In this document: piece by piece, positions 28,430-53,192 of the stretch
How the letters are laid out: every line of letters starts with the position of its first letter
How positions within the stretch are numbered: position 1 is the stretch's first letter
NCBI RefSeq assembly: GCF_019968605.1
Contig: NZ_CP082966.1
Coordinates: forward strand, 1,103,001-1,167,000
Direction of reading: 5' to 3'
From: Polaribacter litorisediminis
GTDB lineage: Bacteria; Bacteroidota; Bacteroidia; Flavobacteriales; Flavobacteriaceae
Length of the DNA: 64,000 bases
Position numbers and translations under genes: made by a program
The notes under the pieces: model-generated
The model's database searches: none
Told to the model about the DNA's origin: nothing
Seen by the model: the letters and a program-made list of their open reading frames with translations, nothing else

Positions 28430-28616
28430 ATAGTTGTTAAATATTTGGTAAAGTTAATCAAAAAATTTCAGAAAAATAAATGGTTTAAAATCTTATTTGC
28501 TAGACTTTTATTCCTTATTTGTATAGGTAAACCTTAATATTGTAACAATACACAACTATTGTAATTTGTTAGTTATAAGTAATTTGCGTAATATTGACAA
28601 CCAAACATCAATATAT

Positions 28617-31424
28617 ATGTCATTTAATTACTTAAGAAAGCTCATATTTGGATTTATGTTTTTTTGTTGTAATAGCATTTTTTCTCAAGAAGTTCCTCCA
28701 ATAAATATTTTTTCCACGGAAGATTATGGAGCTGAAAATCAAAATTGGGCAATTTCTCAAGATTCAAATAAACTTATTTATATTGCAAATAATAAAGGTT
28801 TATTAGAATATAATGGCGCAAACTGGCAATTATATCCTACACCTAATGAAACCATTATGCGTTCTGTGAAATGTCTAGATGATAAAATCTATACAGGATT
28901 TTATATGGATTTTGGCTTTTGGACCAAAAATGAATTCGGACTTTTAGATTATACCTCTATTGTTAAAGAGAATGATATTGAAATGCTTGAAGATGAGCAG
29001 ATTTGGGAAATATTTGAATTAGATGGTTGGTTGCTTTTTAAGTCTTTACAGCGAATTTATCTATACAATTTAACCACTCAATCTTTTAAAATAATAAAGG
29101 CAACAAAAAATATTATAAAATTATCTAGAGTAGAAAATGTAATTTATTTTCAAGAATTAGGAAAAGGAGTTTTTCTGATAGAAAATGGAGTTCCTAAATT
29201 GGTTTCGGATGATGAAGTTTTAAAACAAAATAAAATTGTCGAAATATTTTTAAAAAATGATAAATTATTTTTTATCACTCAAAAAAAGGGTTTTTTCTTT
29301 CTTGATGGTCAAAAGTTAAAAAAATGGAACACTCAGATTGATGAATCGCTGGCAAAAAATACGATTTATAGCGCAAGACAATTAAAAAATGGGAATCTTG
29401 TTTTAGGTACAATTTCTAATGGTTTTATAAAATTAGATAAAAACGGAGAAATTAATTACCAAATGACGCAAGGTTTAGGGTTAAGTAATAACACAGTTTT
29501 GTCTATTTTTGAAGATATAGATGAAAATATTTGGTTAGGTTTAGATAACGGAATTAATGTTATAAACCTTTCATCTCCTTTTAGGCGTTTTGTGAATAAA
29601 ACAAGTTATTGGGGTACAATTTATGCATCCATAGTTCACAAAGATTATTTATACATAGGCACCAACCAAGGTTTATTTTATAAGGAAAAAACATCTGAAG
29701 ACGATTTTAAATTTATAGACAATACCCAAGGGCAGGTATGGAATATACAAGAAATAGACGGTGCTCTTTTTTGCAGTCATGATTCGGGTACATTTGTTAT
29801 TGAAAACAAGAAAGCAAAATTTATTGAAGGTACTCAAGGAACTTGGGGCGTAAAAAAAATAGACGAAAAAACTTTAATACAAGGAAGTTATGATGGATTG
29901 TATGTTTTAACAAATGATGGTACATCTTGGAAATTAAAAAATAAGCTACAAGGATTTTCTAATTCTAGTAAGTATTTTATTGTAAAAGAAAACCATAAAA
30001 TTTTTGTAAATCATGAATATAAAGGTGTTTTTAAATTAGAAATTGATAAAGAGTTTCAAAACGTAACAAAAATTAGCAAAGATAATTCGGTCGCAAAAGG
30101 CATTCACTCAAGTTTAATTGAGTATAATAATAACATTTTTTATGCCTGTAAAAGAGGAGTGTATCGCTATATTGATGAAAAAGATTATTTTGAATTAGAC
30201 ACTATATACAGTAAATTAATTCCAAAAGATAAATTTCTTTCTGCAAAATTATTGTTAGATACCTCTAGTAATAAATTATGGTCCTTTACAAAAGATGATA
30301 TCCGCTATTATGCGCCTGGCAAATTAAGTTTAAAACCAAATTTAGAAATTATTCCAATAAAGGGAGATATTTATAAAGGCGCTTCGGGTTATGAAAATAT
30401 AATGTTTTTAGAAGATAAAAAGTACTTGATAGGTACTTCTGACGGTTATGTAATATTAGACTTAAATAGCATCACCGAACCTAAAAATTTTAATACAACC
30501 ATCAATAGCGTTTTTTATAATAAACTAGATGGAATACAAAATAAGGTCAGTTTGTTAAAAAAGAGGTTATTTCAAAAAGATGAAAATAATTTAGGCTTTG
30601 TGTATAGCATCTCTAATTATAATAAAACTTCTTCTATTAAATATCAATATAAATTAGATGGGCTTCATGAGAAGTGGAGTAAGCTTTCTAAAAATAATTC
30701 TTTTTTGTTTGAAAATTTACCTTCTGGTGAATACATCTTTAAGGTAAGAGGATCTATAGATAATAAATTAAGTGACAATATTGCAGAATACGCCTTTAAA
30801 ATATCCAAGCCATGGTATCTTTCAAATGTATTTATTTTTATATATGCTCTTGTTTTTATCATTTTATTTTTTACCATCCACTATGCTTCAAAAGTGTACT
30901 ACAGAAAACAAAGAAAAAATTTATTAGAAAAAACGCAACGAGATTTAGAGTTAAAAGAACTTGAGAGTTCCCAGAAAATTATAAAATTAAATAATGATAA
31001 ATTAAGAAGTGATATTGAAAGTAAAAATCGAGAATTAGCGACTTCTACAATGAGTATTATCAAGAAAAACGAATTTTTAAATTCAATTAAAACAGAACTT
31101 ATTTCAAAAGGAAAAGAAGGTATCGAAAAAGTGGTTAAGATAATTGACCAAAACTTAAACAATACGGATGATTGGAAATTGTTTCAAGAAGCATTTAACA
31201 ACGCAGATAAAAATTTTCTTAAAAAAATAAAATCCAAACACTCAGAATTAACCCCGAATGATTTAAGATTATGTGCATATCTTCGACTTAATCTATCTTC
31301 AAAAGAAATAGCACCATTATTAAATATTTCACCTAGAAGTGTAGAAGTAAAACGATACAGACTTCGTAAAAAAATGAATTTACCTCATAACACCAATTTA
31401 ACCAATTACATATTAGAAGTTTAA
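28617..31424 (+). CDS. SusR-like membrane-spanning regulator: propeller sensor, Y_Y_Y, TM, coiled coil, LuxR-type HTH
   Basis: This one-component glycan sensor/regulator (935 aa from 28617) binds a ligand in the periplasm and DNA in the cytoplasm. The start MSFNYLRK gives a signal sequence ending SIFSQ; an in-frame start 51 bases upstream is less likely. Residues 25-660 form a beta-propeller with two-component-regulator repeats (IYIANNKGLLEYNG, NIWLGLDNGINVIN, YIGTNQGLFY). A Y_Y_Y domain follows (about 665-725), then a transmembrane helix near 735-757, a charged coiled coil (about 760-830) and a C-terminal LuxR-like helix-turn-helix (LSSKEIAPLLNISPRSVEVK). There is no histidine kinase or receiver domain. 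It directly precedes the laminarin susC, so it most likely controls that locus. Confidence 0.9.
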   Translation: MSFNYLRKLIFGFMFFCCNSIFSQEVPPINIFSTEDYGAENQNWAISQDSNKLIYIANNKGLLEYNGANWQLYPTPNETIMRSVKCLDDKIYTGFYMDFGFWTKNEFGLLDYTSIVKENDIEMLEDEQIWEIFELDGWLLFKSLQRIYLYNLTTQSFKIIKATKNIIKLSRVENVIYFQELGKGVFLIENGVPKLVSDDEVLKQNKIVEIFLKNDKLFFITQKKGFFFLDGQKLKKWNTQIDESLAKNTIYSARQLKNGNLVLGTISNGFIKLDKNGEINYQMTQGLGLSNNTVLSIFEDIDENIWLGLDNGINVINLSSPFRRFVNKTSYWGTIYASIVHKDYLYIGTNQGLFYKEKTSEDDFKFIDNTQGQVWNIQEIDGALFCSHDSGTFVIENKKAKFIEGTQGTWGVKKIDEKTLIQGSYDGLYVLTNDGTSWKLKNKLQGFSNSSKYFIVKENHKIFVNHEYKGVFKLEIDKEFQNVTKISKDNSVAKGIHSSLIEYNNNIFYACKRGVYRYIDEKDYFELDTIYSKLIPKDKFLSAKLLLDTSSNKLWSFTKDDIRYYAPGKLSLKPNLEIIPIKGDIYKGASGYENIMFLEDKKYLIGTSDGYVILDLNSITEPKNFNTTINSVFYNKLDGIQNKVSLLKKRLFQKDENNLGFVYSISNYNKTSSIKYQYKLDGLHEKWSKLSKNNSFLFENLPSGEYIFKVRGSIDNKLSDNIAEYAFKISKPWYLSNVFIFIYALVFIILFFTIHYASKVYYRKQRKNLLEKTQRDLELKELESSQKIIKLNNDKLRSDIESKNRELATSTMSIIKKNEFLNSIKTELISKGKEGIEKVVKIIDQNLNNTDDWKLFQEAFNNADKNFLKKIKSKHSELTPNDLRLCAYLRLNLSSKEIAPLLNISPRSVEVKRYRLRKKMNLPHNTNLTNYILEV

Positions 31425-31702: not shown

Positions 31703-34700
31703 ATGAGAAAAAAAATGATGTTGCTACTCTTTTTACTCGCTGGTTTTTGCTTAAATGCACAAACTATAGATGTAAAAGGTGTTGTTAAAGATGCTAAAAC
31801 TGGAGATCCACTTCCAGGAGTTAGTGTAAGTATTAAAGGAACTATTTCAGGAACAGAAACTGATTTTGATGGACTTTTTATTCTTTCAAAAGTAGAAAAA
31901 GGAGCTGTATTAGTATTTAATTACTTAGGGTATGCCCAAAAAGAAGTAACTGTAAATCAACCAAACCTAGAGGTTACATTAGAAGAGTCGGCAGAGTCTT
32001 TAGATGAAATTGTAGTGGTTGGTTATGGTTCGCAGAAAAGAAAGGATGTAACAGGTTCTGTATCTATTGTAGGTGAAGCAACTTTAGAGGCTTTAAGGCC
32101 AGTAGATGCAACAAGTGCATTGCAAGGAACAACCTCGGGTGTTGCTGTAAACCTTTCATCAGGTGCACCTGGTGCTAAAGTAAATATTTTAATTAGGGGT
32201 GTTAGTTCTAACACAAACAATCAACCTTTAACAATTGTTGATGGTTATGAAGGAGATTTAAATAGTATAAATCCGAATGACATTGAAACTATTACTGTTT
32301 TAAAAGATGCACAAGCTGCAATTTACGGTATTAAAGGTGCAAACGGGGTGGTTTTAGTTACTACTAAAATTGGTAGAAAGAATAAAAAACCAACTGTTAA
32401 ATATGATACTTATGCAGCTGTACAACAAACGACTAGGAAATTAGACTATTTAAATGCAACTGAGTACGCGTTGGTTTTAAATGAAGCGTATGCTTCAAGT
32501 GGTCAAACATTGCCGTTTAATAATGTAGGGCAATTAGGTAGAGGTACCAATTGGCAAGATCAACTATTTAATGATGCTATTTTAATGAATCATAACATTA
32601 GTTTATCTGGCGGTGGAGAAAATGTAAGATATTTTGTAAGTGCTTCTCGTACCGAGCAAGATGGTATTATCGCTAAAGAGAAATCTAATTTTGTTAGAAA
32701 TAATATCAAATTAAATTTAGCAGTAGATATCAATGAAAAACTTAATTTTTCTTTAATTGCAAACTATTTTACTAGTCAATCTCAAGGTTTTGACGGTTCA
32801 CTATTATTTAATGGTTTAAATTATGCACCAACTTTTGGTTTAAACGAAGATGATACAAATAACTTTTTAGGAATAGAAGTTGTGAATCCTTTATCATTAT
32901 TAGACAATACATTTGGTCAAAATAATGGAAACGGAATTGAAGGGAATTTTAAGTTGGAATATAAACCAATTGAAGGTTTAAATGTTGTATCCCGTGTTGG
33001 ATATAAGATTTACAATGAAAAGCAACGTTCATTTACACCGATCCAGGAGTATGGTTTGGCAAAAGTATACAACCAAACACAAAGTTCTGTGTATCAATTT
33101 AAAGCTACATCAACAAGAGTAGTTTGGGAAACTTTTGCTACCTATGCTAAAACTTTTAATGAAGACCATAATGCTACTTTTACGGCAGGTACAAGTGTTC
33201 AGAATGATTTATTTGATGGTATTTATGCTACAGGTTTTGATGTACCAAATAATTCTTATGCCTTTGCAGATATTAGCTTAACAAATTCTCAAAGTGAGCA
33301 AAGAAGCATAAATACTGGTAATGGTGATATTAGACTTACTTCTTTTTTTGGTAGAGCTCAATATGATTATAAAGGAAAATATTTATTTTCTGGATTAGTT
33401 AGAAGAGACGGCGCTTCAGTTTTTGCTGAAGACCAAAGAGTAGATAATTTCTGGTCGGTAACAACAGGTTGGAAAATTTCTGACGAAGACTTTTTAAAAG
33501 ATAATAAAACCATTAGCTTTTTAAAATTAAGAGGAAGTTATGGTACGCTAGGAAACCTTGTTGGAGATAATTTATTTAGATCCTTATTAAATGGTGAAGC
33601 AGAATATGTATTTGATGGAAGTCTTGTTGATGGTACTGCTCAAGGAGGTTTACCAAACCCGATTGCAACTTGGGAAACAGCTGAGAAATTAGATATTGGT
33701 TTAGATATTAATTTATTTGATGACAAGTTATCTTTCGTAGCAGATTATTTTGTAGAAACTAGAAAAGATTTATTAATTCAAAATTTTCCAGTCTCTGGTT
33801 TATTAGGTTCTGGAGCTCCTGGAGGAGCAAATCCAACTGTAAATGCAGGTACATCTAGAAATACGGGTGGGGAATTGGCCATTAATTATAGAGCTTATTC
33901 ATCTGAAGATACTTCTTTAAACTTCTCGTATAACGTTACCTATGTAAAAAATGAAGTTACTGACGTTTTAGACAACGCTTTTGTAGAAGGTGGAGCCTTT
34001 GCTATTGGAAACTTACCTCCATCAAGAATGGAAGTTGGTCAACCAATTGGGTACTTTTTAGGGTTACAAACCGATGGTATTTTCCAATCACAAGCAGAAA
34101 TAGATGCGCATCCTTCTCAGTCAGGATTAGGGGCTTCTAGCACTGCTCCTGGTGATATCAGATATAAAGATACGAATGGAGATGGTGTTTTAAACTTTGA
34201 AGATAGAGTGAATATTGGAAATCCACAAGCAGATTTTTATATGGGCTTTAATATTTCTGGTACCTATAAAAATTGGGATTTTGCAACCTACTTATATGCT
34301 GAATTAGGGAAAGACATGGTTAGAAATTTTGAACGTTTTTTACCAAATGTTAATAAACCAGCTTCTTATTTAGGAAGATGGACCGGACCAGGAACAAGTA
34401 ATTCTATTCCTAGATTAACAAATGATGCAACAAATAATCAACTATTTTCTGATTTCTTTGTAGAGGATGCATCATTCTTACGTTTACAAAATATTCAAAT
34501 CGGATATAACTTTTCTCCAGAAACCCTGAAAAAAGTAGGTTTGGCCAAAGTGAGATTGTATACATCAATCAACAATTTATTTACATTAACTGAATACACT
34601 GGATTTGATCCAACAGTGAATGGAGGTGCAATTGGTGCTGGTATAGATGGAGGTACTTATCCATCAGCAAGACAATTTTTATTAGGTTTAAATGTTGAAT

Positions 34701-34705
34701 TTTAA
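31703..34705 (+). CDS. susC: SusC/RagA-family TonB-dependent importer (laminarin locus)
   Basis: This is an outer-membrane active importer (1000 aa) for beta-glucan oligosaccharides. The signal peptide ends FCLNAQ (residue 20), followed by a carboxypeptidase-regulatory-like domain (VKGVVKDAKTGDPLPGVSV), the SusC signature EIVVVGYGS, the plug domain (ILIRGVSSNTNNQPLTIVDG, VLKDAQAAIYGIKGANG) and a long TonB barrel ending LLGLNVEF. It is about as long as the starch SusC but clearly divergent from it. It is first in an operon with susD 11 bases on. Substrate comes from context: GH16, GH17, GH30, GH3 and GH149 genes downstream. Confidence 0.96.
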   Translation: MRKKMMLLLFLLAGFCLNAQTIDVKGVVKDAKTGDPLPGVSVSIKGTISGTETDFDGLFILSKVEKGAVLVFNYLGYAQKEVTVNQPNLEVTLEESAESLDEIVVVGYGSQKRKDVTGSVSIVGEATLEALRPVDATSALQGTTSGVAVNLSSGAPGAKVNILIRGVSSNTNNQPLTIVDGYEGDLNSINPNDIETITVLKDAQAAIYGIKGANGVVLVTTKIGRKNKKPTVKYDTYAAVQQTTRKLDYLNATEYALVLNEAYASSGQTLPFNNVGQLGRGTNWQDQLFNDAILMNHNISLSGGGENVRYFVSASRTEQDGIIAKEKSNFVRNNIKLNLAVDINEKLNFSLIANYFTSQSQGFDGSLLFNGLNYAPTFGLNEDDTNNFLGIEVVNPLSLLDNTFGQNNGNGIEGNFKLEYKPIEGLNVVSRVGYKIYNEKQRSFTPIQEYGLAKVYNQTQSSVYQFKATSTRVVWETFATYAKTFNEDHNATFTAGTSVQNDLFDGIYATGFDVPNNSYAFADISLTNSQSEQRSINTGNGDIRLTSFFGRAQYDYKGKYLFSGLVRRDGASVFAEDQRVDNFWSVTTGWKISDEDFLKDNKTISFLKLRGSYGTLGNLVGDNLFRSLLNGEAEYVFDGSLVDGTAQGGLPNPIATWETAEKLDIGLDINLFDDKLSFVADYFVETRKDLLIQNFPVSGLLGSGAPGGANPTVNAGTSRNTGGELAINYRAYSSEDTSLNFSYNVTYVKNEVTDVLDNAFVEGGAFAIGNLPPSRMEVGQPIGYFLGLQTDGIFQSQAEIDAHPSQSGLGASSTAPGDIRYKDTNGDGVLNFEDRVNIGNPQADFYMGFNISGTYKNWDFATYLYAELGKDMVRNFERFLPNVNKPASYLGRWTGPGTSNSIPRLTNDATNNQLFSDFFVEDASFLRLQNIQIGYNFSPETLKKVGLAKVRLYTSINNLFTLTEYTGFDPTVNGGAIGAGIDGGTYPSARQFLLGLNVEF

Positions 34706-34716
34706 TACATAAAAAG

Positions 34717-36201
34717 ATGAGAAATTACAAACAAAAAATAAAATTAGGATTCATCTTTATGGCAAGTTTATTTGTTATAACTTCATGTTCAGATGAATAC
34801 TTAGACAATTCTAAACTTTATGCAGAAGATTCTGAATCTTTTTTCAATTCAGAAACCGATTATTACAATGCGTTAGTAGCAGCGTATGATCCTTTACAAT
34901 CTTCATATATAAATGTATTGATGGGAGAAATAGCTTCTAATAATACCTTATGTGGTGGTGAAAGTGCAACAGACGTTCCTGGATTTCAGCAGATTGATGA
35001 TATGATTCATACTCCGGTGAACGCTCAACTACAAGCTCTTTGGAGCTGGATGTACGGAGGTGTTAACAGAGCTGCATACATTATAGAGTTTCAAGATAAA
35101 ACAGAATTTGCTGGCAATGAGATCATCATTGCGGAAGCTCATTTTTTAAGAGCCTACTATAATTTCGAATTGGTAAAATGGTTTGGAGACATTCCTATTA
35201 AACCAGAAGGTCGTTTTGTTTTAGGGGATGAAAAATCAATTCCAAGATCGCCTAAGGCAGAAGTTTATGCTTTAATAGAACAAGATTTAAAAAATGCAGT
35301 CGATAATTTGTCTTATACAGCTCCTCAAATTGGGAGAGCAACAAAAGGATCTGCACAAGCTTTATTAGGTAAAGTATATTTATTTCAAGATAAATTTTCT
35401 GATGCAGCTACTGTATTAGAAGATTTAATTCAGAATGGTCCTTACATGTTAGAGCCGGATTATAACAAAATTTTTGAATTTGCAGGTGAAAACGGAGTAG
35501 GTTCTGTGTTTGAAATTCAGTATACAGACATTCAAGGTGCTGGTTTTGGTTGTTTACAATGTAGTGAAGGTAATGTTGCTGTAGGTTTTCAAGGAGTTAG
35601 AGGGTATAAAGGAGACTTGTTTACATCAGGATTTAGTTTTAACGTGCCAACGCAAGATGTAGTAGATGAATTTGAACCTGGAGATATTCGTAAAGACGTA
35701 GCTATTTTAGATATAGATGCTTGGGCTGCATCAACAGGAGCTGAATTTACAACAGGCTTTGAGCACACTGGTTATTTTAATAGAAAATACATTCCAAGAG
35801 TTCGAAGTGAAAATGCTGCAGGAGATTTAAACTTAACAAACCCAAATAATTACAGAGCAATTCGTTTTGCAGATGTGTTATTAATGGCAGCAGAATCTCT
35901 TAATAGAAAACCGAGTCCAGATGATGCACAGGCATTGATATATTTAAACTTGGTAAGAGAAAGAGCGTTTGGTAATACAGACAATAACATTACAACAACG
36001 GGTACTAATTTAACAGCTGTAATTTATAAAGAGCGTAGAGTTGAATTAGTTGGAGAAGGTCATCACTTTTTTGACTTGGTAAGAACAGGAAGAGGAACAC
36101 AAATACCAGGGTTTACAGCAGGCAAAAATGATGTATTTCCTATTCCTTTAGAAGAAATACAATTTTCTCAAGGAAATTGGTCACAAAATCAAGGATATTA
36201 A
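34717..36201 (+). CDS. susD: SusD/RagB-family lipoprotein (laminarin locus)
   Basis: This surface glycan-binding lid of the SusC channel (494 aa) has lipobox FVITSC (C24) followed by SDEYLD, acidic as expected for surface lipoproteins. It has the typical SusD N-terminal segment (ESFFNSETDYYNALVAAYDP), the TPR-like core (AEAHFLRAYYNFELVKWFGD, ATKGSAQALLGKVYLFQ) and the C-terminal block with YKERRVELVGEGHHFFDLVR followed by VFPIPLEEIQFSQGNWSQNQ. Length is normal. The next gene starts 11 bases after its stop. Confidence 0.95.
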   Translation: MRNYKQKIKLGFIFMASLFVITSCSDEYLDNSKLYAEDSESFFNSETDYYNALVAAYDPLQSSYINVLMGEIASNNTLCGGESATDVPGFQQIDDMIHTPVNAQLQALWSWMYGGVNRAAYIIEFQDKTEFAGNEIIIAEAHFLRAYYNFELVKWFGDIPIKPEGRFVLGDEKSIPRSPKAEVYALIEQDLKNAVDNLSYTAPQIGRATKGSAQALLGKVYLFQDKFSDAATVLEDLIQNGPYMLEPDYNKIFEFAGENGVGSVFEIQYTDIQGAGFGCLQCSEGNVAVGFQGVRGYKGDLFTSGFSFNVPTQDVVDEFEPGDIRKDVAILDIDAWAASTGAEFTTGFEHTGYFNRKYIPRVRSENAAGDLNLTNPNNYRAIRFADVLLMAAESLNRKPSPDDAQALIYLNLVRERAFGNTDNNITTTGTNLTAVIYKERRVELVGEGHHFFDLVRTGRGTQIPGFTAGKNDVFPIPLEEIQFSQGNWSQNQGY

Positions 36202-40065: not shown

Positions 40066-40098
40066 AAAAAGGTCGAGCTTTATGCTCGACCTTTTTTT
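40066..40098 (+). terminator. Rho-independent terminator after the GH16 gene
   Basis: A perfect 13-bp stem (AAAAAGGTCGAGC with GCTCGACCTTTTT) has a 5-base loop and is followed by further T residues. It lies 22 bases after the GH16 stop and closes the susC-susD-SGBP-GH16 unit. Confidence 0.9.
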
Positions 40099-41653: not shown

Positions 41654-44600
41654 ATGAAGAACACTTTTTTGAGATTATTACTTTTGTTATTTACTTTTAG
41701 CTTTTATGCACAAGGGCCAAAGGTTTCTGTAATGAAAGATTCTAATGGTATGAAATTAATTATTGATGGAAAACCAACAATGATTAATGGTATAAATTGG
41801 GATTACGTTCCAATCGGCTACAATGTATTAGACGCTAAATTTTGGGAAAAACCAGATGACATTATCAAAGCCGGTTTAGATGGTGAAATGCCTTTATGGC
41901 AAAATATGGGGGTTAATGCGATTAGAACATATATAGGAATGCCTCCTAAATGGATCACATATATTTACGAAAACTTTGGTATTTATACCATGATAAACCA
42001 TCAATTTGGGGCTTATGGTTTAACCTTAGATGGTGTTTGGTATCCACAAACTGACTATGCAGACCCTAAAGTACGTAAGCACTTACTGGATGCAACTTTA
42101 GAGATGGCTAAAACCTATGAAAATACGCCAGGTTTATTACTATTTATGTTGGGTAACGAAAACAACTATCACTTAACATGGGAAGGCGCAGAAACTGATG
42201 AAGGTGTAATTATAAGTGATGACGATCCAGCAAAAAGAGCACAGGCAAGAGCGATGTATAAGTTATTTAACGATGCCACTGTAGCGATGAAAACAATTGT
42301 AAAAAATCATCCTATTGGTATTTGTAATGGGGACTTGTTGTATTTAGATATAGTTGCAGAAGAATGTAAGGATATAGATATTTATGGTACAAATATGTAT
42401 CGTGGAGAATCTTTTTATGATGCTTTCGATAAAGTTAGTGCAGTGTTTAATAAGCCAATTTTGTTTACAGAGTTTGGTTCAGATGCTTTTAACGCAAGAG
42501 ACAATAAAGAAGACCAATTAATGCAAGCGTATTATATGGTGAACAACTGGAAAGAAATTTATGCAAATGCCTATGGATTAGGTAAGGCAGAAAATTCTAT
42601 TGGTGGTTTTACTTTCCAATCTAGTGATGGTTGGTTTAAAGCTGGTTTTAATGAAAGAAAAAATGCAGATGTACACGATACGAAAGCTTCTTGGCCAAGT
42701 AATGGGTATAATAGAGATCAAGCAAAGCAGGATGACAAAAATATGAATGAAGAGTGGTTTGGTATTGCTGCAAAAGGCCCAACCGATGTTAGGGGTCTAT
42801 ATACTTTATACCCTAGAGCTGCGTACTATGCTTTAAAACAAGCACATTCTTTAAACACTTTTAACACTACAAAAGAATCTGTAGAAAATCACTTCAAAAA
42901 TATTAATTTAATGGATGCTGTTCTTAAGGCTAGAGGCGATAAAGCAGCAATGGGAAGTGAGAAAAAAATTGAAATAAGTAATTTAAGAGCAGAGTTTACA
43001 ACCTTTAATACGGGAGGCTCTTTAGTAACAACACCAGAATTTGCAGATGGTTCAGGAGATGTTTATCCGGATAGAATAGGGTTCGATCATATGCAATCTT
43101 ATTTTGTAGGTGTTAAAGGGCAACCTTCTGCTAATATTAAAGCCGAAGTTAATTTTAATATTCTAGGTAATGTCGCGGGCAATCCTATAGATGATATTTT
43201 CTATGAAAATGTAGGTAGACCAATTCAGGTTGATTCTCCTAACGGAATTTTAACGCTAGTGGACAATAATAGATTAAGAGTTTATAATGCAGAATTCGAA
43301 TGGAATGCCGAGGATTTTGATATGAGAGGTTTTTACAGAACGGGTCACTATCACTGGGGTTATGAAGGAGATTTTTTCGGAATTTATCCTGAAGCATATT
43401 ATGGACCGAATTTAGATATTTACAACGGTGAAATTTTAGGAGTTGAAGTAGATGGTAAAGGGGCTTTATCTGGATTAAAAGCTGCCTTTGGACCACAACT
43501 TTGGTGGGGAGCAAACCCTGCGGTATTATTAAAATATCAAAATAGCTTTAAAGGTTATGACTTCTCTGCTGTTTATCATAAAGATATCGTGTCAGGTGGT
43601 GGTTTTGACGAAAATGGAAATAGGGTATTAGACCCAACTCAATTAAGAACAGGGGTGATACCTGCAATACCTACTGAAAGGGCTACTGTAGCAGTGCAAA
43701 GAAAAGGAGATCACTTTGGTTTTCAGCTTGGTGCAATTTTTGGAGGTAGACCTTTAAATGGAAGTGCTTACCAAGATATAGATGATAATGGTCAGGTGGT
43801 GACAGATAAAATTCAATCAAAAGACAATTGGGGTGGTAAGGCAAAAATTACGTATAGTAATGGAGGTTTTAACTGGTATGCTCAGGGTTCTGTTATGGGC
43901 TTAGTTGCCAATGGTGGAGGAGATCCAACATTAACTTTTACTGGTTGGAAATTGAAAGATTCTGGAAGTGGGAACATGCAAAACATTTTATCAGGTATAT
44001 CATATAATTTCGGGGGTAAATTTCAAATTGCACCAAATTTTATGTATCAAAAACCATTGGTTGCAGCAATGCCAAATGGAGGTGCTGCTCCAGGTAGATT
44101 AAGAAATTTTGTTGATGATCCTTTTGTAGTAAGAGCAGGAAATAGAGAAATGACAGCAGGAGAAATCTTATTCACATTCGATCCAACTCCGGCTACATAT
44201 ATGTATGAGTTTGATAATGATATGGCAGAAGATGCTAAATTTGCAATGAATTTAGGTTTTGTATATCGTAGTTTACCAACTACGCAAGATGCAGCAATTG
44301 GTTTCTTAGCAAATCGTTCTTCTTTTGCATTTGCACAATCGGCTCCAGCGGCAGACTTGTGGGAAATTAATTCAAGAATAGTCTCTAAGGCTAGACCAAG
44401 TTTAGGATTAATTGCAAATCTTTACTATGGTACAGGTCAAGCAAATGGAGATAGCGAGAGATTAATTTATAGAGGTGGTGCAGATTTAAGAATGATTTAC
44501 AACAAGATGAAAATTATGGGTATGGTAAAAGTTAATGATTGGGGTCCTTTTGATTATCATAGAGATTTCAACTTAACATTTCCATTACAATTAATGTTAG

Positions 44601-44821
44601 ATATTTCTACATCTGTAGGTAAACCAAATTGGCTTATTTTACCAGATACTAAAGTTGGTCTTAGAGGTACATGGAGATCCTTAAACGAGTTTTCACCAAG
44701 GTATTCACCAACCCAAACGGCAGATGCCTTTGCGACAGAAACTAGATTAAGTCCTGTAGGTTTTCCAAATGGTTCTGAATGGGAAATTAGAACTTATATT
44801 CATATTAATATAGGAAAATAG
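41654..44821 (+). CDS. Clan GH-A glycosidase fused to a C-terminal outer-membrane beta-barrel-like domain
   Basis: This is a two-part protein of 1055 aa from 41654 (an upstream TTG frame start is rejected because this ATG gives the signal peptide ending FSFYAQ). Residues 25-405 form a TIM barrel like GH2/GH5-type clan-A enzymes: GVNAIRTYIG, acid/base E169 in MLGNENNYH, IYGTNMYRG, nucleophile E273 in LFTEFGSDA and FQSSDGWFKAG. Residues about 435-1055 are a run of alternating aromatic/polar strands with short turns (VYNAEFEWNAEDFDMRGFYR, FGFQLGAIFGG, ISYNFGGKFQIAPNFMYQ), typical of an outer-membrane barrel. There is no lipobox. It heads block B. The catalytic half is homologous to the lipoprotein at 56367. 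Substrate beta-1,3-glucan is inferred from context; the barrel call is by inspection. Confidence 0.72.
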   Translation: MKNTFLRLLLLLFTFSFYAQGPKVSVMKDSNGMKLIIDGKPTMINGINWDYVPIGYNVLDAKFWEKPDDIIKAGLDGEMPLWQNMGVNAIRTYIGMPPKWITYIYENFGIYTMINHQFGAYGLTLDGVWYPQTDYADPKVRKHLLDATLEMAKTYENTPGLLLFMLGNENNYHLTWEGAETDEGVIISDDDPAKRAQARAMYKLFNDATVAMKTIVKNHPIGICNGDLLYLDIVAEECKDIDIYGTNMYRGESFYDAFDKVSAVFNKPILFTEFGSDAFNARDNKEDQLMQAYYMVNNWKEIYANAYGLGKAENSIGGFTFQSSDGWFKAGFNERKNADVHDTKASWPSNGYNRDQAKQDDKNMNEEWFGIAAKGPTDVRGLYTLYPRAAYYALKQAHSLNTFNTTKESVENHFKNINLMDAVLKARGDKAAMGSEKKIEISNLRAEFTTFNTGGSLVTTPEFADGSGDVYPDRIGFDHMQSYFVGVKGQPSANIKAEVNFNILGNVAGNPIDDIFYENVGRPIQVDSPNGILTLVDNNRLRVYNAEFEWNAEDFDMRGFYRTGHYHWGYEGDFFGIYPEAYYGPNLDIYNGEILGVEVDGKGALSGLKAAFGPQLWWGANPAVLLKYQNSFKGYDFSAVYHKDIVSGGGFDENGNRVLDPTQLRTGVIPAIPTERATVAVQRKGDHFGFQLGAIFGGRPLNGSAYQDIDDNGQVVTDKIQSKDNWGGKAKITYSNGGFNWYAQGSVMGLVANGGGDPTLTFTGWKLKDSGSGNMQNILSGISYNFGGKFQIAPNFMYQKPLVAAMPNGGAAPGRLRNFVDDPFVVRAGNREMTAGEILFTFDPTPATYMYEFDNDMAEDAKFAMNLGFVYRSLPTTQDAAIGFLANRSSFAFAQSAPAADLWEINSRIVSKARPSLGLIANLYYGTGQANGDSERLIYRGGADLRMIYNKMKIMGMVKVNDWGPFDYHRDFNLTFPLQLMLDISTSVGKPNWLILPDTKVGLRGTWRSLNEFSPRYSPTQTADAFATETRLSPVGFPNGSEWEIRTYIHINIGK

Positions 44822-44834
44822 AAAATTTCAGTAA

Positions 44835-46235
44835 ATGAAAACAAAAATAGAAACATATTTAAAGTCCTCGTTTTTTATAATGTTGATGATAAGTTTATCT
44901 AGTTGCGAAAGAGATATTTCAGTAGATGCAACGATAGCTTCTTATCCCTCAACGGCAGAAGTCTTTATAGATGGTTTTAGTGGAGGCTTGGAATATTATC
45001 CGTATGCTGATTCTAAATTTACTGCTTTTTCAGTCGATACTGAAACTAAATACCTAGGAGCTGCTTCTATGCGTTTTGATGTACCAAATGTAGATGATCC
45101 GGAAGGAGCATACGCAGGTGCAATCTTTAGGGATGATAATGGTGGTAGAGATTTATCTAATTATGATGCACTTACTTTTTGGGCAAAGGCAACAACAGCA
45201 GCGACTATTAACGATATAGGTTTTGGTCAAGATTTTGGAGAGAACAAATTTCAAGTAAGTAAAAGGGGTTTGCGGTTAACTACAAACTGGGTCAAATATA
45301 CGATCCCAATTCCAATACCTTCTAAACTTACCAAAGAAAGTGGTATGATGTGGTTTGCGGAAGGTCCTGAAAACGGAGATGGCTATACTTTTTGGATAGA
45401 TGAATTGAAATTCGAGAAGCTAGGAACTATTGGGCAGCCAAGACCTGCAATTCAGAATGGTCAAGATATTATTACGGATTCTTTTATAGGAGTAAATGTA
45501 ACGGTTGCAGACTTAGTGCAAACCTTCAATTTAGGTTCGGGCATAAATGAAACGATAGCAATAGCGCCTAGTTATTTTGAATTTTCATCGTCAGATTCAA
45601 GCGTTGCAGAAGTAAGTTCATCGGGTTCTATACAAGTACTTTCGGATGGTTTAACAGTAATTAGTGCTACTTTAGATGGGTTAGATGCTTTAGGTTCTTT
45701 AACCATAAATTCAAGCGGTGCTTTTGTTTTAGCACCAACTCCAGAAAGAGATCCAGATAAGGTTACTTCTATTTTTAGTGACTACTATGAAAATACTACA
45801 GTAGATTTTTATAATGGATATTGGCAACCCTACCAAGAAACTTTATCAGCTGATTTTAGCATTGATGGTGATCATATTTTAAATTATACAAACTTCAATT
45901 TTGTTGGAATTCAATTTGCCAACCCAACGATAGATACAACGGTAAAGTCTAATTTACACTTTAATATGTATATTCCAGGAGAGGTTCCATCTAATTTTGA
46001 CTTTTTAATATCCATCGTAGATTTTGGTCCCGATCAGGTTGGTGGTGGAGGCGATGACAGCAGAGAGCAATTATTTATAAGAAGGTCTTCTAGGGTTGTC
46101 GCAAATGAATGGATGACTTTTGAATTTCCTTTAACCTCAGGAAATAGATCAAATGTTGGACAAATAATTTTTGAAAATATTAATTTTTCATCATTAAGAA
46201 ATATTTATTTAGATAATATTTATTTTTATGAGTAA
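44835..46235 (+). CDS. Surface glycan-binding lipoprotein (CBM-like, Big-like and shared C-terminal module)
   Basis: This is a predicted laminarin-binding surface lipoprotein (466 aa), lipobox SLSSC (C24) followed by the acidic ERDISVD. Residues about 30-205 form a beta-sandwich resembling carbohydrate-binding domains (FTAFSVDTETKYLGAASMRF, GGRDLSNYDALTFWAKA, YTFWIDELKFEKLG). Residues about 235-300 look like a bacterial Ig-like domain (FSSSDSSVAEVSSSGSI, VISATLDGLDA). Residues 308-466 carry the shared module, beginning VTSIFSDYYEN and ending LDNIYFYE. It is 13 bases after the fusion gene and is paralogous over its full length with the next gene. No enzyme motif is visible. Confidence 0.82.
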   Translation: MKTKIETYLKSSFFIMLMISLSSCERDISVDATIASYPSTAEVFIDGFSGGLEYYPYADSKFTAFSVDTETKYLGAASMRFDVPNVDDPEGAYAGAIFRDDNGGRDLSNYDALTFWAKATTAATINDIGFGQDFGENKFQVSKRGLRLTTNWVKYTIPIPIPSKLTKESGMMWFAEGPENGDGYTFWIDELKFEKLGTIGQPRPAIQNGQDIITDSFIGVNVTVADLVQTFNLGSGINETIAIAPSYFEFSSSDSSVAEVSSSGSIQVLSDGLTVISATLDGLDALGSLTINSSGAFVLAPTPERDPDKVTSIFSDYYENTTVDFYNGYWQPYQETLSADFSIDGDHILNYTNFNFVGIQFANPTIDTTVKSNLHFNMYIPGEVPSNFDFLISIVDFGPDQVGGGGDDSREQLFIRRSSRVVANEWMTFEFPLTSGNRSNVGQIIFENINFSSLRNIYLDNIYFYE

Positions 46236-46297: not shown

Positions 46298-47785
46298 ATG
46301 AAAAAAACGAAATTTATAAATGCGAAAATAACTCTTTTATTGGGGTTGGGTTTTATACTTTTTACAAGTTGTGAAAGAGAGATTTCAGATCAAGCCCTTC
46401 CTGCAACATTTAACTCTTCAGGTGAAATATTTGGAGATGCTCCTTCTGGCTTAACAGACGATTTCTTTATTTCTTTCGATCCTGCGGGTGGCGCAAATAC
46501 AGAAGGATTTGGAACGGATGAGACTATATTTTATGAAGGTACAAGTTCTATCAAAATAGCTGTACCAGCACCAAATGACCCAAATGGAGGTTTTATTGGT
46601 GGAATTTTTAGAGATAGAGGAGAGGGTAGAGATTTATCTGGTTATGATGCATTAACATTTTACGCCAAAGGTTCTACAACAGGTACCATTGGTCAAGTTG
46701 GTTTTGGAACAGATTTCTTAGACGGTCAATATCCTGTTACTCGTTCTAATATTCAATTAACAACAGATTGGAAAAAATATGTAATTCCAATACCAGATCC
46801 AAGCAAATTGACTCAAGAAAAAGGAATGTTTCTATTTGCAGCAGGTGGATTAGATATCATCGATAACGTTCCTAATGGAAATGAAATTGGTTGGACTTTT
46901 TGGTTAGACGAAATCAGATTCGAAAAATTAGGTACAATAGGTCAAGCAAGACCAATGATTTATAATGGTCAAGACGTGGCTGAAGATGTTTTTACAGGCT
47001 CTCAAATATTCTTAAATGATTTAAAAGAATCATTTCAGTTAGGTACAGGAGAAGTAGTTACTGTGAATCCTTCTTATAATTATTTTACATTCAGTTCTTC
47101 TGATTCTAATATCATAAACACAGATAATTTATTATTCGACCCATCAGGTAATCCCTATGTAGAAGTACTTGATGCAGGGAGTACTACTATTTCAGCAACG
47201 TTAAACAATGTGGCTGCAGAAGGTTCGTTTACAGCCAATTCTTTAGGGGAATTTGTGACAGCTCCAGATCCAACAAGGCCACAAGAAGATGTAATTTCGA
47301 TATTTAGTGATGCTTATCCAGGAGGAGTAACAAATTTAAATATTGCCGCGTATAACGATAGTAACATTACTATTAGTGCTCCCATAGCTAACGGTAACCA
47401 ATATATAAATTATGAAAACTTAAACTTTGTTGGTTTGGGTTGGGATGGAACTGTAAACGCATCTCAAATGACACATTTACATGTAGATGTGCAAATAACG
47501 AGTTCAAATGCTAAAAACTTTATAGTAGAAATTATTGATTTTGGACCGAATAATGAAAATAATGGTTTTGGAGGTACGGATGATTCTGCAGGAGGCTTTT
47601 TAGTCTCAAGTAATCAGTTAATTGAAGGTCAGTGGATAAGTTTAGACATACCTTTAACTTCTTTTACAAGAAGTACTGGTGGCGGTGGCGGTGGTAGACC
47701 CAATGTGAGTAACATAGGGCATGTTGGTTTTGTATCACTTTCTTTAGATTCTTTTTTAATCGATAATGTATATTTCTACAAATAA
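46298..47785 (+). CDS. Surface glycan-binding lipoprotein, paralogue of the preceding gene
   Basis: This predicted surface lipoprotein (495 aa) has lipobox FTSC (C25) followed by EREISD. Its domain order equals that of the preceding gene: CBM-like sandwich (GFGTDETIFYEGTSSIKI, GRDLSGYDALTFYAKG, FWLDEIRFEKLGTIG), Ig-like segment (FSSSDSNIINTD, TTISATLNNVAAEG) and the shared module at 330-495 (VISIFSDAYPG to IDNVYFYK). A glycine-rich loop (STGGGGGGRPN) lies near the end. The pair clearly arose by tandem duplication, and the sequences have since diverged, so binding preferences may differ, for example backbone versus branch points. Confidence 0.82.
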   Translation: MKKTKFINAKITLLLGLGFILFTSCEREISDQALPATFNSSGEIFGDAPSGLTDDFFISFDPAGGANTEGFGTDETIFYEGTSSIKIAVPAPNDPNGGFIGGIFRDRGEGRDLSGYDALTFYAKGSTTGTIGQVGFGTDFLDGQYPVTRSNIQLTTDWKKYVIPIPDPSKLTQEKGMFLFAAGGLDIIDNVPNGNEIGWTFWLDEIRFEKLGTIGQARPMIYNGQDVAEDVFTGSQIFLNDLKESFQLGTGEVVTVNPSYNYFTFSSSDSNIINTDNLLFDPSGNPYVEVLDAGSTTISATLNNVAAEGSFTANSLGEFVTAPDPTRPQEDVISIFSDAYPGGVTNLNIAAYNDSNITISAPIANGNQYINYENLNFVGLGWDGTVNASQMTHLHVDVQITSSNAKNFIVEIIDFGPNNENNGFGGTDDSAGGFLVSSNQLIEGQWISLDIPLTSFTRSTGGGGGGRPNVSNIGHVGFVSLSLDSFLIDNVYFYK

Positions 47786-47833: not shown

Positions 47834-48673
47834 ATGAAAATAAAAAATATAATATTTAAAGTATCGGCAATATTTTCAATAGCGTTATTGATGAGTTGTG
47901 ATACAGACGAAACGCAAACAGTAGCAACGCTTAATACGTTGGTTTGGGCAGATGAGTTTGATTCAAATGGAACTCCAGATGCAGCAAATTGGAATCTTTT
48001 AACTGGTGATGGCACGGCACAAGGTATTCCTGGCTGGGGTAATAATGAATTACAGAGCTATACGGATAGAGCGGATAATGTTACAGTTCAAGACGGAGTT
48101 TTAATTATTACAGCAAAAGAAGAAAATTATGAAGGTAAAAACTATACTTCTGCAAGAATTACTACCAAAGGAAAACTCGATCAACAATATGGAAGATTCG
48201 AAGCAAGAATAAAATTACCTACAGGTAAAGGTATTTTTCCAGCATTTTGGCTTTTAGGTGATGATGCTAATGGAAGTCTTGTTTGGCCTCAAATAGGTGA
48301 AATTGATATTATGGAATATTTAGGTGATGAACCTACTTCTGTTTTCGGTACCATTCATGGACCAGGTTATTCTGGAGGAAATTCCATTACAAAGAAATAT
48401 GATATCTTAAATGATAGGTTTGATAATGGCTTTCATGTATTTGGTGTAGAGTGGACTCCAAACAGAATTAATTGGTATGTAGATGGAGATTTGTATCAAT
48501 CAATTACGCCTGCAGATGTTGATAAAGAAACAGGAGGAGCAGAATGGGTGTTTAACAGACCCTTTCACATCATACTAAACGTTGCAGTTGGTGGTAATTT
48601 ACCAGGTTCACCAGATTCAAATACCATTTTTCCACAAAGAATGTTAGTGGACTATGTAAGAGTTTATAATTAA
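47834..48673 (+). CDS. GH16 beta-1,3-glucanase (laminarinase) lipoprotein, single-domain
   Basis: This endo-beta-1,3-glucanase (279 aa) has lipobox LLMSC (C22) followed by DTDET. It consists only of the GH16 jelly roll: VWADEFDSNGTPDAANW, WGNNELQSYTDR, GIFPAFWLLGDD and the catalytic signature E156-I-D158-I-M-E161 in GEIDIMEYLG. It ends VDYVRVYN. It lacks the PKD and middle domains of the block A GH16, so the two enzymes may divide work, one held near the SGBP/SusCD complex and one on shorter or different chains. It lies in block B between binding lipoproteins. Confidence 0.94.
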   Translation: MKIKNIIFKVSAIFSIALLMSCDTDETQTVATLNTLVWADEFDSNGTPDAANWNLLTGDGTAQGIPGWGNNELQSYTDRADNVTVQDGVLIITAKEENYEGKNYTSARITTKGKLDQQYGRFEARIKLPTGKGIFPAFWLLGDDANGSLVWPQIGEIDIMEYLGDEPTSVFGTIHGPGYSGGNSITKKYDILNDRFDNGFHVFGVEWTPNRINWYVDGDLYQSITPADVDKETGGAEWVFNRPFHIILNVAVGGNLPGSPDSNTIFPQRMLVDYVRVYN

Positions 48674-49736: not shown

Positions 49737-52700
49737 ATGAGTAAAACTGTTTCTTACCAAGACAATGTATCCTCTAAAAGTGTCGATGGGATTACTGGGG
49801 AGTTAGTGAATTATCAAAACGAATCTTATTACAAAATATCCAATAGCCATGCAATGCGGCCGTTTTTTATGAGCGTTGTATCAGATTCCAATCACTGGAT
49901 GTTTATTTCTAGTAATGGAGGTCTTACGGCAGGAAGAAAAAATGCAGATTTTGCACTTTTTCCATACTATACGGATGATAAACTAACTGAACTAGCAGAA
50001 ACTACAGGGTGTAAATCTATTTTTAGAATTCAAAAAAATGATAAAACATATCTATGGGAACCTTTTTCAGAAAGGCAAGCTGGTTTGTATACTATCAGAA
50101 GAAATTTATACAAGAATATTTACGGAAATAAAATTGTTTTTGAAGAAATAAATGAAGATTTAAACTTAATCTTTAAATATCAATGGAACTCTAGTGACGA
50201 ATTTGGTTTTGTTAGAAAAGCTACATTGATTAATAATGCAGATGAAGATTTAGAGATCTCTTTAATAGACGGATTACAAAATCTTTTACCTTATGGAGTA
50301 GGTTCTGATATTCAAGGCATTCGAAGTAATTTAGTAGATGCCTACAAAAAATGTGAGTTAGAAGCAGATTCTGGTGTTGGTATTTACGCATTAAGTGCAA
50401 TTATTGTTGATAAAGCAGAGCCAAGTGAGGCTCTAAAAGCAAATTTGGTTTGGTCTTTAGGATTAGAAAATCCTACCTATCTGCTATCTTCTTTGCAATT
50501 AGATAATTTTAGAAGAGGAATTGACATACATCAAGAGGTAGATATAAAAGCAGAAAAAGGTGCTTACCTTTTAAATGCTACCATTCAATTGCCGTCTAAA
50601 CAAGAAAAAACTTGGTCGCAAGTGGCAAATGTAAATCAAACAGTTTCTGATGTTGTCAGTATTTCTGAAATGATTAAAAGTAATAATCATGTAGAAGAAA
50701 CTTTGAACAAAAGTATACAAGAAGGGACTAAAAAATTAATCAATTTAGTAGCCGCTTCAGATGGTTTACAATTATCAAATGACGAGTTAGTTAATACAAG
50801 ACATTTTTCAAATACACTTTTTAATATTATGAGAGGTGGTATTTTTGATGATAATTATAACATTGGTAAACAAGATTTTATTACATACGTATCAAAAGCA
50901 AACAAAAAATTATTTACAAAAATAAAAGCATCTTTACAGAATCTACCAAATGAATTTACGGTAGAATTTATTAAAGATTTAGCAGATAAAGATGAAGACA
51001 AAGACTTTAAAAGATTGTGTTTAGAGTATTTGCCATTAAAATTTAGTAGAAGACATGGAGATCCGAGTAGACCTTGGAACAAGTTTTCTATCAACACAAA
51101 AAGTGAAGTTGATGGTTCTAAACTATTAGATTATGAAGGGAATTGGAGAGATATTTTTCAAAACTGGGAAGTATTAGCAAATTCATATCCTCAATTTATT
51201 GAGAGTATGATTCATAAGTTTTTGAACGCAACAACTTTTGAAGGATATAATCCTTATAGAGTTACGAAAGATGGTTTCGATTGGGAAATTATAGAAGAAC
51301 ATGACCCCTGGTCTTACATTGGGTATTGGGGAGATCACCAGATTATTTATTTATTAAAGTTTTTAGAGTTTATCGAAAAACATTACCCGTCTAAGTTAGC
51401 AGAATTATTTAATGACGACATTTTTGTATATGCAAACGTGCCGTATAAAATAAAATCATATGCAGACATTGTTAAGAACTCGAAAGATACCATTGATTTT
51501 GACCATCAACTAAATGCTAAGATTGATGAGAGAAGAGCAAATATTGGTGCAGATGGTTCTTTGTTAACAGATAAAAACGATAATGTCTATAAAGTAAATC
51601 TTATTGAAAAATTATTAGTAACTGTTTTGGCAAAAGTGGCCAACTTTATTCCTGAAGGCGGAATTTGGTTAAACACGCAACGTCCGGAATGGAATGATGC
51701 CAACAATGCTTTAGTGGGTAATGGGGTTTCTATGGTAACCTTATATTACTTAAGACGCTTTATCAATTTCTTTGAGGGTATCGTAGAAAATTCTGATGTT
51801 AATGATATTGAAATTTCTGCTGAAGTTGCTTCTTTATTCAAAGAAATCTTAAAAACATTAGATGATAATGCTGCTATTTTATCTAAAAAAGTATCAGATA
51901 AAGATAGAAAAACGGTTTTAGATGGTTTGGGAAATCCTTCAAGTGACTACCGAGAATTTATTTATGAAAACGGCTTTTCAACAGATAAAACTTCTGTGAC
52001 CAAATCTTCATTGTTACACTTTTTTGCCATCACTAAAAATTATTTAGATCATAGTATTAGAGCCAACAAGCGTGCTGATAATATGTATCACGCTTATAAT
52101 TTAATGACGATTGAAAATGAGGATGAAGTTTCTATTTCATACTTATCAGAAATGTTAGAAGGGCAGGTTTCAGCATTAAGTTCCGGATATTTAACGCCTC
52201 AACAAGCGTTAGATTTATTAGACGGTTTAAAAGCATCGGCTTTATTCAGACCAGATCAATATAGTTATATCTTATATCCAAATAAAAATTTACCAAGATT
52301 TACAGATAAAAACAATATTCCTTCAGATAAAGTAGAAAATTCTGAACTATTACAAAAATTGGTAGAAGATGGAAACCGTACGATTATAGAAAAAGATATT
52401 TTAGGAAATTATCATTTTAATGGGAATTTCAATAATGCAGAGAGCGTTAAAGTAGCTTTGCATACTCTTTCAGATGAATACGATTCTTTAGTGAAAACCG
52501 GATCAAAAACGGTATTGGATATTTTTGAAGAAATCTTTGATCATAAATCTTTTACAGGCCGTTCAGGTACTTTCTTTGGTTATGAAGGTTTAGGTTCTAT
52601 TTATTGGCATATGGTATCTAAACTGTTATTGGCAGTGCAAGAAAACTGTTTATTAGCCATAAATTCTAATGAAAATGAAGTGGTTATTGGTAAGCTTTTA

Positions 52701-53192
52701 GACCACTATTACGAGATATATGCCGGAGTTGGTTTACATAAATCACCTGAATTGTATGGTGCTTTTCCTACAGATGCATATTCTCATACTCCTGCTACAA
52801 AAGGAGCACAACAGCCAGGAATGACAGGTCAAGTAAAAGAAGATTTGTTAAGCAGATTTGGAGAATTAGGTATCTTTGTAGAAGATGGTAAAGTGGTTTT
52901 TAAACCCCGATTATTAAAAATATCTGAGTTTTTAGAAGAAGCAAAAGTCTTTGATTACATCGACGTGTATAACAACAAACAACAATTAAATGTTGATAAA
53001 AATCAGTTATGTTATACCTATTGTCAAGTACCAATTATTTATAGTTTATCGAATGAAGAAAAGGTTGAAGTAGCTTTCAATGATGGTTCAAATATAGTGT
53101 TTGATTCCTTAATTTTAGATGAAGCAACCAGTACAAATCTGTTTAATAGAAACCATAAAATAAACCACATAAAAGTTTCAATCATAAAATAA
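49737..53192 (+). CDS. GH149 beta-1,3-glucan phosphorylase (cytosolic)
   Basis: This 1151-aa protein without a signal peptide is predicted to phosphorolyse beta-1,3-gluco-oligosaccharides to alpha-glucose-1-phosphate. Its N-terminal region resembles GH94 phosphorylases (AMRPFFMSVVSDSNHWMFIS, WEPFSERQAGLYTIRRN), and the barrel carries GYWGDHQIIYLLKFLE and the RPEWNDANNALVG segment, whose aspartate D654 aligns with the catalytic WND motif of GH94. Length far exceeds a GH94 cellobiose phosphorylase (about 800) and fits GH149, the family with known beta-1,3-oligoglucan phosphorylases in algae and bacteria. It is first in block C. It is the functional counterpart of GH65 in the starch locus. Confidence 0.85.
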   Translation: MSKTVSYQDNVSSKSVDGITGELVNYQNESYYKISNSHAMRPFFMSVVSDSNHWMFISSNGGLTAGRKNADFALFPYYTDDKLTELAETTGCKSIFRIQKNDKTYLWEPFSERQAGLYTIRRNLYKNIYGNKIVFEEINEDLNLIFKYQWNSSDEFGFVRKATLINNADEDLEISLIDGLQNLLPYGVGSDIQGIRSNLVDAYKKCELEADSGVGIYALSAIIVDKAEPSEALKANLVWSLGLENPTYLLSSLQLDNFRRGIDIHQEVDIKAEKGAYLLNATIQLPSKQEKTWSQVANVNQTVSDVVSISEMIKSNNHVEETLNKSIQEGTKKLINLVAASDGLQLSNDELVNTRHFSNTLFNIMRGGIFDDNYNIGKQDFITYVSKANKKLFTKIKASLQNLPNEFTVEFIKDLADKDEDKDFKRLCLEYLPLKFSRRHGDPSRPWNKFSINTKSEVDGSKLLDYEGNWRDIFQNWEVLANSYPQFIESMIHKFLNATTFEGYNPYRVTKDGFDWEIIEEHDPWSYIGYWGDHQIIYLLKFLEFIEKHYPSKLAELFNDDIFVYANVPYKIKSYADIVKNSKDTIDFDHQLNAKIDERRANIGADGSLLTDKNDNVYKVNLIEKLLVTVLAKVANFIPEGGIWLNTQRPEWNDANNALVGNGVSMVTLYYLRRFINFFEGIVENSDVNDIEISAEVASLFKEILKTLDDNAAILSKKVSDKDRKTVLDGLGNPSSDYREFIYENGFSTDKTSVTKSSLLHFFAITKNYLDHSIRANKRADNMYHAYNLMTIENEDEVSISYLSEMLEGQVSALSSGYLTPQQALDLLDGLKASALFRPDQYSYILYPNKNLPRFTDKNNIPSDKVENSELLQKLVEDGNRTIIEKDILGNYHFNGNFNNAESVKVALHTLSDEYDSLVKTGSKTVLDIFEEIFDHKSFTGRSGTFFGYEGLGSIYWHMVSKLLLAVQENCLLAINSNENEVVIGKLLDHYYEIYAGVGLHKSPELYGAFPTDAYSHTPATKGAQQPGMTGQVKEDLLSRFGELGIFVEDGKVVFKPRLLKISEFLEEAKVFDYIDVYNNKQQLNVDKNQLCYTYCQVPIIYSLSNEEKVEVAFNDGSNIVFDSLILDEATSTNLFNRNHKINHIKVSIIK

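Follow-up and report, generated by a model that had tools for sequence, protein, structure and literature searches.

Among the storage glucans of algae, laminarin is a major one, and SusCD genes are the common sign by which its uptake is recognised in marine Bacteroidota. A locus of Polaribacter litorisediminis raises the question of what else might carry such a glucan across the outer membrane, as it encodes a glycosidase and a putative outer-membrane beta-barrel as one protein. We considered this fusion within the 64,000-nucleotide stretch of genome that contains it (the window), and then in relatives within and beyond the family Flavobacteriaceae.

The fusion gene and its two halves

A regulator, SusC, SusD, a PKD protein and a GH16 lie 5' of a perfect hairpin that was not listed by a consensus terminator scan. 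With this hairpin read as a terminator, the fusion, beyond a gap of 1.6 kb, heads a separate unit in the order fusion, two FAM482 lipoproteins, GH16, PKD protein, GH149, GH3, GH17, GH2-type TIM, GH30, MFS transporter and GH17. The features referred to below are:

28566..31424, + strand: regulator with Reg_prop, Y_Y_Y and LuxR-type HTH (domain matches)
31703..36201, + strand: SusC and SusD of the window locus (domain matches)
40066..40096, + strand: putative terminator, a perfect 13-bp hairpin and T-run 3' of the upstream GH16 gene
41654..41713, + strand: signal peptide, residues 1-20, of plain type without a lipobox (sequence reading)
41714..42949, + strand: clan GH-A TIM-barrel enzyme domain, residues 21-432 (model, conservation, GH158 profile match)
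42158-42160, + strand: codon of E169 in the enzyme domain
42470-42472, + strand: codon of E273 in the enzyme domain
42950..42967, + strand: linker of about 6 residues from the enzyme to strand 1 (secondary structure of the full-length model)
42968..44812, + strand: predicted 24-strand outer-membrane beta-barrel, residues 439-1053 (structure models, fold matches, loop analysis)
44835..46235, + strand: FAM482 lipoprotein copy 1, 466 aa, ...SSCERDIS (sequence, clustering)
46298..47785, + strand: FAM482 lipoprotein copy 2, 495 aa, ...TSCEREIS (sequence, clustering)
47834..48673, + strand: GH16, the conserved third cassette gene (domain match, gene order)
49737..53192, + strand: GH149 beta-1,3-glucan phosphorylase (NF058639)

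A Bacteroidota-type promoter pattern was uninformative, with 8 occurrences against 7 expected, and an RNA element in the gap before the fusion was rejected, all matches falling below the gathering score and sitting on the hairpin. The gap also holds a MITE-like element of about 227 bp with 18-bp terminal inverted repeats (40765-40991), matched at 92-100% by 40 places in the genome, itself included, with 40 of 126 candidates scored. Elsewhere in the window, a neighbouring alpha-glucan locus (3943-28116) encodes a SusE-type protein, an MFS transporter, GH65, several alpha-amylases and GH31.

The fusion itself runs uninterrupted from the ATG at 41654 to the stop at 44821 on the + strand, encoding 1055 residues; this reading frame and the structure models bear out the original prediction of a single protein joining a clan-A TIM barrel to a porin-like half. 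E169 and E273, named there, are invariant across 56 full-length relatives, and in the model and alignment they place the acid/base after strand 4 and the nucleophile after strand 7, as in clan GH-A. The top profile match of the TIM domain is GH158, a weak one (E 2e-6 to 5e-5, about 20% identity) in which the GNE and TE[WF]G glutamates line up with both glutamates of the fusion. GH158 structures are also the leading Foldseek matches of the full-length model; in VIA-align, GH157, GH158, GH2 and GH5 structures tie for the TIM domain. The GH158 endo-beta-1,3-glucanases (BuGH158, PMC7157763) share these aligned glutamates, but their structures have no barrel. The PF02836 label is carried by many relatives in the database and the Pfam GH2 TIM domain lies below its gathering score in P0001 (16.8 bits vs 21); 'GH2' is a misleading name for the barrel-fusion family. 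From genomic context and weak homology, activity on beta-1,3-glucan is probable.

Two other TIM proteins were seen along the way. One, a 338-aa protein of the window without a barrel (56367-57383), is 27% identical to the fusion enzyme and has a GH2 match and a GH72 glucanosyltransferase match just above the cut-off. The other, P0213 (695 aa, from a metagenome), joins the TIM enzyme to a GH16 domain rather than a barrel. A lipobox in the fusion was set aside: among the best 80 of at least 572 relatives, a loose pattern flagged 7 fusions and the strict AQ signal-peptide pattern was found in 55, and we read the remaining fusions as probably having plain signal peptides, with [AGST]Q-like sites of another kind or with starts called too late.

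For the C-terminal half of about 620 residues, proposed earlier as an outer-membrane barrel, structure prediction had been set beforehand as the test, with tandem beta-sandwiches as the outcome against it. These were not obtained; for residues ~439-1053 the structure models and the fold matches give a barrel. The matches are OprD-type porins, a chitoporin, a sucrose porin, AlgE and chaperone ushers, at 6-11% identity, and prediction gives the usual attributes of an outer-membrane barrel: a signal peptide and amphipathic strands in even number, joined by long loops on the outside and short turns on the inside. We regard a barrel fold, with 24 strands predicted, as nearly certain from models that have alignment rows in common; the arrangement of enzyme relative to barrel is uncertain, the full-length model having a pTM of only 0.52.

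Sequence searches assigned the barrel to no known family. Among 64 members, Pfam gave only weak matches (best E 0.042) and NCBIfam one TonB-receptor match in 3 (best E 0.0064), while a PDB profile search gave no match up to E 10. The fusion lacks the plug, carboxypeptidase-like and TIGR04056 matches that the window's own SusC shows. Of 8,000 candidates scored against the barrel query, 5,001 reached E <= 0.001 (the best 120 of 5,001 being viewed), and by these searches this is a large barrel family for which no Pfam or NCBIfam model was found. Co-occurrence of the two halves, suggested as a check on the fusion, held up across the phylum: 35 of 395 genomes gave barrel matches, 32 of them whole fusions, one a fusion split over contigs (G259) and two fragments (G174, G290). 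None of these genomes had an intact barrel without the enzyme. The full-length profile matched 45 of the 395, comprising 33 whole fusions (one contig-split) and 12 enzyme-only or partial proteins.

In the predicted barrel, the loops that follow odd strands are 7-36 residues long (median 27) and the turns that follow even strands are 2-21 residues long (median 3), a difference with a Mann-Whitney p of 9e-5, with greater length variation among relatives in the odd-strand loops (p 0.03). Such alternation is usual for barrels whose two ends are periplasmic, as the ends of this barrel should therefore be. Since the last TIM helix of the full-length model ends at residue 432 and strand 1 starts at 439, the enzyme should lie on the same side, and on these models we consider its periplasmic location very likely. 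This disfavours one of the alternatives originally offered, a surface anchor: the predicted even strand number, the alternation of loops and turns and the short linker all put the enzyme in the periplasm. In the 56 loci with TIM, barrel, GH149 and GH16 together, the median identity measured against the window copy is 65.5% for the barrel, 62.0% for the TIM domain, 63.2% for GH149 and 59.2% for GH16; for FAM482 it is 41-42%, and for SusC 43.6% (17 loci). Within the barrel, the long loops (76%) match the strands (77%) in conservation. Conservation of the barrel and its long loops is more in keeping with a specific function than with passive anchoring.

FAM482 and the gene order of related loci

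The two FAM482 lipoproteins of the window are 41% identical; most other loci have one copy, and in some loci FAM482 carries extra C-terminal modules. The motif C[EDT]Rx[LIVFY][ST] follows a lipobox-like stretch in 76 of 80 FAM482 proteins, the other four comprising three with missing or misplaced starts and one with a variant motif. We take the acidic residues after the cysteine to resemble Bacteroidota surface export signals, and FAM482 is probably surface-exposed, as judged from the lipobox neighbourhood alone. Searches for SusD_RagB and SusD-like domains gave no match in FAM482, only sub-threshold Big_2 or nothing, and no solved structure matched.

In the best 80 of at least 572 relatives, mostly Flavobacteriaceae, the fusion is a called gene in 79 loci, with L028 truncated at the end of its contig. 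FAM482 is the gene right after the fusion in 78 of the 79, the other one reaching a contig end there, and GH16 comes second in 72. A set of 59 relatives including the window's own genome, with nearly all candidates scored, holds the fusion in 12 and the enzyme alone in 8. Full-length FAM482 is present in exactly the 12 and in none of the 8; outside the 12, only its C-terminal module was matched. Across the phylum, with at most 4 candidates scored per genome, so that matches may be missed, full-length FAM482 occurs in 33 of 33 whole-fusion genomes (one in two pieces) and in 1 of the other 362 (G181, a weak match of 242 bits). Adjacency fails in G199, where the two genes are 9.5 kb apart, and at contig breaks. 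FAM482 may act as a surface ligand-binding partner of the fusion.

The original prediction had remarked in passing that glycan passage normally uses SusCD, and this became the main point. SusC or SusD was seen in the flanks of 23 of the 79 loci from the best 80; another 43, with 9 kb or more of sequence upstream, show neither gene, and 13 are too short, so that 43 of the 66 loci long enough to judge have no flanking SusC/D. In 48 of 79 other loci the regulator is the gene immediately 5' of the fusion, and in 39 of the 43 SusCD-free loci the fusion and FAM482 directly follow it, in the SusC-SusD slot. The flank profiles for SusC/D were built from clusters of the same loci and could therefore miss diverged members. 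In 18 distant loci from ten other families, drawn from the 33 whole-fusion genomes, neither SusC nor SusD was seen, and FAM482 is directly 3' of the fusion in 17. Ten large ORFs picked from ten of these 18 loci gave no TonB-receptor family match (two match nothing), and hidden TonB receptors were set aside to that extent. The one locus without that adjacency, L151, has a rearranged cassette with GH18 after the fusion; in another distant genome, a T9SS-sorted GH81 protein (L146:7648-10227) adjoins the fusion.

We considered whether a SusC might be encoded elsewhere in such genomes, using the window's SusC as query and scoring at most 26 or 46 candidates per genome, so that matches may be missed. 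In 11 of 11 controls taken from the 23 SusCD-bearing loci, the best match is at the locus, at 42-49% and 702-915 bits. Of the 38 genomes searched from the 39 SusCD-free loci (L073 was left out), 33 have no match above 506 bits or 38%. Four (L030, L061, L072 and L092) have matches of 46-48% and 890-922 bits, which in three cases lie roughly 22-30 kb away from the fusion, provided that contigs are numbered as the nodes are, and L034 has a partial match of 46%. Among the 18 distant genomes the best match reaches 37% and 566 bits; 7 of them show no match at 1e-50. A more diverged transporter may exist elsewhere in SusCD-free genomes. In Maribacter, one study reports induction by laminarin of SusC/D genes at scattered genomic positions (PMC11345257), and a SusC outside the locus may likewise serve.

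Enzyme genes that lack the barrel have a different setting. Their 15 fusion-free loci include no FAM482; 9 of them show SusCD, and the 6 that do not include two short pieces. Same-genus loci have SusC and SusD in 7 of 7, typically in the order regulator-SusC-SusD-PKD-GH16-TIM-GH149 (in L144 the TIM gene runs off the piece), and by sequence reading a lipobox is present in 8 of 13 enzyme-only proteins with an intact start, one more being ambiguous. Comparison with the fusion loci suggests that enzyme plus SusCD and enzyme-barrel plus FAM482 are alternative modules around one glucan core. The 6 exceptions mean that this rule is not strict and that an enzyme-only gene need not have SusCD nearby.

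A possible uptake role and its alternatives

We suggest, with a probability of roughly one half, that the fusion and FAM482 form a module for glucan uptake, operating in the manner of SusCD, with entry through the barrel coupled to periplasmic cleavage. Surface FAM482 would capture laminarin or GH16-cut oligosaccharides and pass them to the 24-strand barrel, an outer-membrane uptake channel whose long conserved loops would line or gate the lumen and whose own digestive enzyme would sit at the periplasmic mouth. The emerging chain would be cut there by the tethered TIM domain, acting as a retaining beta-1,3-glucan hydrolase or transglycosylase, and this cutting would stop back-diffusion and pull entry without TonB. 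Such a module would do the work of SusCD without being related to it. In loci that have both, the window's among them, it could be a parallel or later route, and the presence of SusCD in 23 of 79 loci and the window means that, on this evidence, it cannot be essential for entry there. A channel coupled to cleavage was the other alternative of the original prediction. It is indirectly favoured by FAM482 and the SusCD-free loci, while we infer transport itself, its direction and coupling, the beta-1,3-glucan substrate, and the activity and periplasmic position of the enzyme. A role in uptake, broadly put, is the somewhat likelier part, and substitution for SusCD is slightly less likely than not. 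Only tentatively would we extend the proposal to a new class of glycan transporter: a cleavage-driven, TonB-independent importer of laminarin-type beta-1,3-glucan, unrelated to and interchangeable with SusCD, in at least ten Bacteroidota families.

Two less ambitious roles can be set against this. The barrel might simply hold a periplasmic glucanase at the outer membrane beside another transporter, as would suit the recurrence of tethering in the enzyme family (the enzyme-only lipoboxes) and the loci where SusCD coexists with the fusion. An anchor would, however, leave a barrel as conserved as its enzyme, with loops as conserved as strands, always accompanied by FAM482 where enzyme-only genomes lack it; it would spend some 620 residues on a job that a lipid does elsewhere, and in 33 of 38 SusCD-free genomes the search found no control-like SusC for it to stand beside. 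We consider it unlikely. An ordinary diffusion channel for short oligosaccharides, equipped with an enzyme and aiding SusCD or a distant SusC rather than serving as the main entry, would agree with the OprD-type, chitoporin and sucrose porin fold matches, with the same 23 loci and with laminarin SusC genes lying elsewhere, as in the Maribacter report. The SusCD-free gene order of 39 loci and all 18 distant loci argues against this auxiliary role, as does a strict lipoprotein pairing that resembles a SusCD-type capture system, and we hold it to be quite unlikely.

Movement in the outward direction is harder to reconcile with the data. Classical and patatin-type autotransporters have the enzyme first and the barrel last, as the fusion does, and the barrel could in principle export its enzyme to the cell surface. 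In type V systems the passenger is linked through the pore; in the model, the linker of about 6 residues between the TIM domain and strand 1 is too short to cross it, the strands number 24, and strand 1 begins on the short-turn, periplasmic side, making display of this kind very improbable. The enzyme might instead transglycosylate a glucan leaving through the barrel, a notion to which the exporter AlgE among the fold matches, the GH72 match of the 338-aa TIM gene of the unit and a GH17 transglycosylase in a Muricauda laminarin PUL (PMC13188888, in its accessible part) lend some colour. No glucan synthase was found in the fusion's unit, however, and its named neighbours are degradative, together with a sugar importer; we give export the least credence of all.

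Relation to known systems

As in SusC/SusD pairs, a barrel gene and then a lipoprotein gene come right after the PUL regulator, with GH16 and GH149 downstream. Unlike them, the fusion has no plug or SusC match, carries an enzyme and is predicted to have 24 strands rather than 22, and FAM482 has no SusD match. OprD-type porins, AlgE and chaperone ushers (about 24 strands in ushers) have a similar fold, but they differ in their loops, lack an enzyme and show no sequence-level match. The SpmT sphingomyelinase (TC 1.B.79; PMC4827864, accessible part) likewise combines an enzyme and a putative pore in one chain, but its enzyme is at the other end, of another kind and from another phylum.

The accessible open-licence literature yielded no description of a glycosidase-barrel fusion, and the accessible parts of several papers touch on its setting. 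The Muricauda laminarin PUL has a 'GH2 beta-glycosidase' with LuxR, GH16, GH149 or GH3, GH17, GH30 and MFS genes (PMC13188888); locus L070 comes from a record listed there and its gene order matches, so this 'GH2' very probably belongs to the same family. The main text of that paper has no occurrence of 'outer membrane', 'TonB' or 'SusD' and describes no barrel. Kappelmann et al. report a laminarin-inducible PUL in Polaribacter Hel1_33_49, a strain that has a homologue (P0062), and count PULs without susCD as incomplete (PMC6298971). Sidhu et al. describe GH149-GH0 laminarin PULs, with the GH0 of one genome in the top 10% expressed, and count PULs without susCD as CAZyme clusters (PMC10108472); that GH0 may be a fusion-type TIM. 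Selfish uptake depends on SusCD-like transporters according to Unfried et al. (PMC6246565).

If the fusion and FAM482 are an importer, SusCD-free loci may be complete PULs, and surveys based on SusCD undercount laminarin users. A barrel with its own enzyme would then be an alternative to TonB-driven glycan uptake, and possibly a different route by which marine bacteria take up laminarin.
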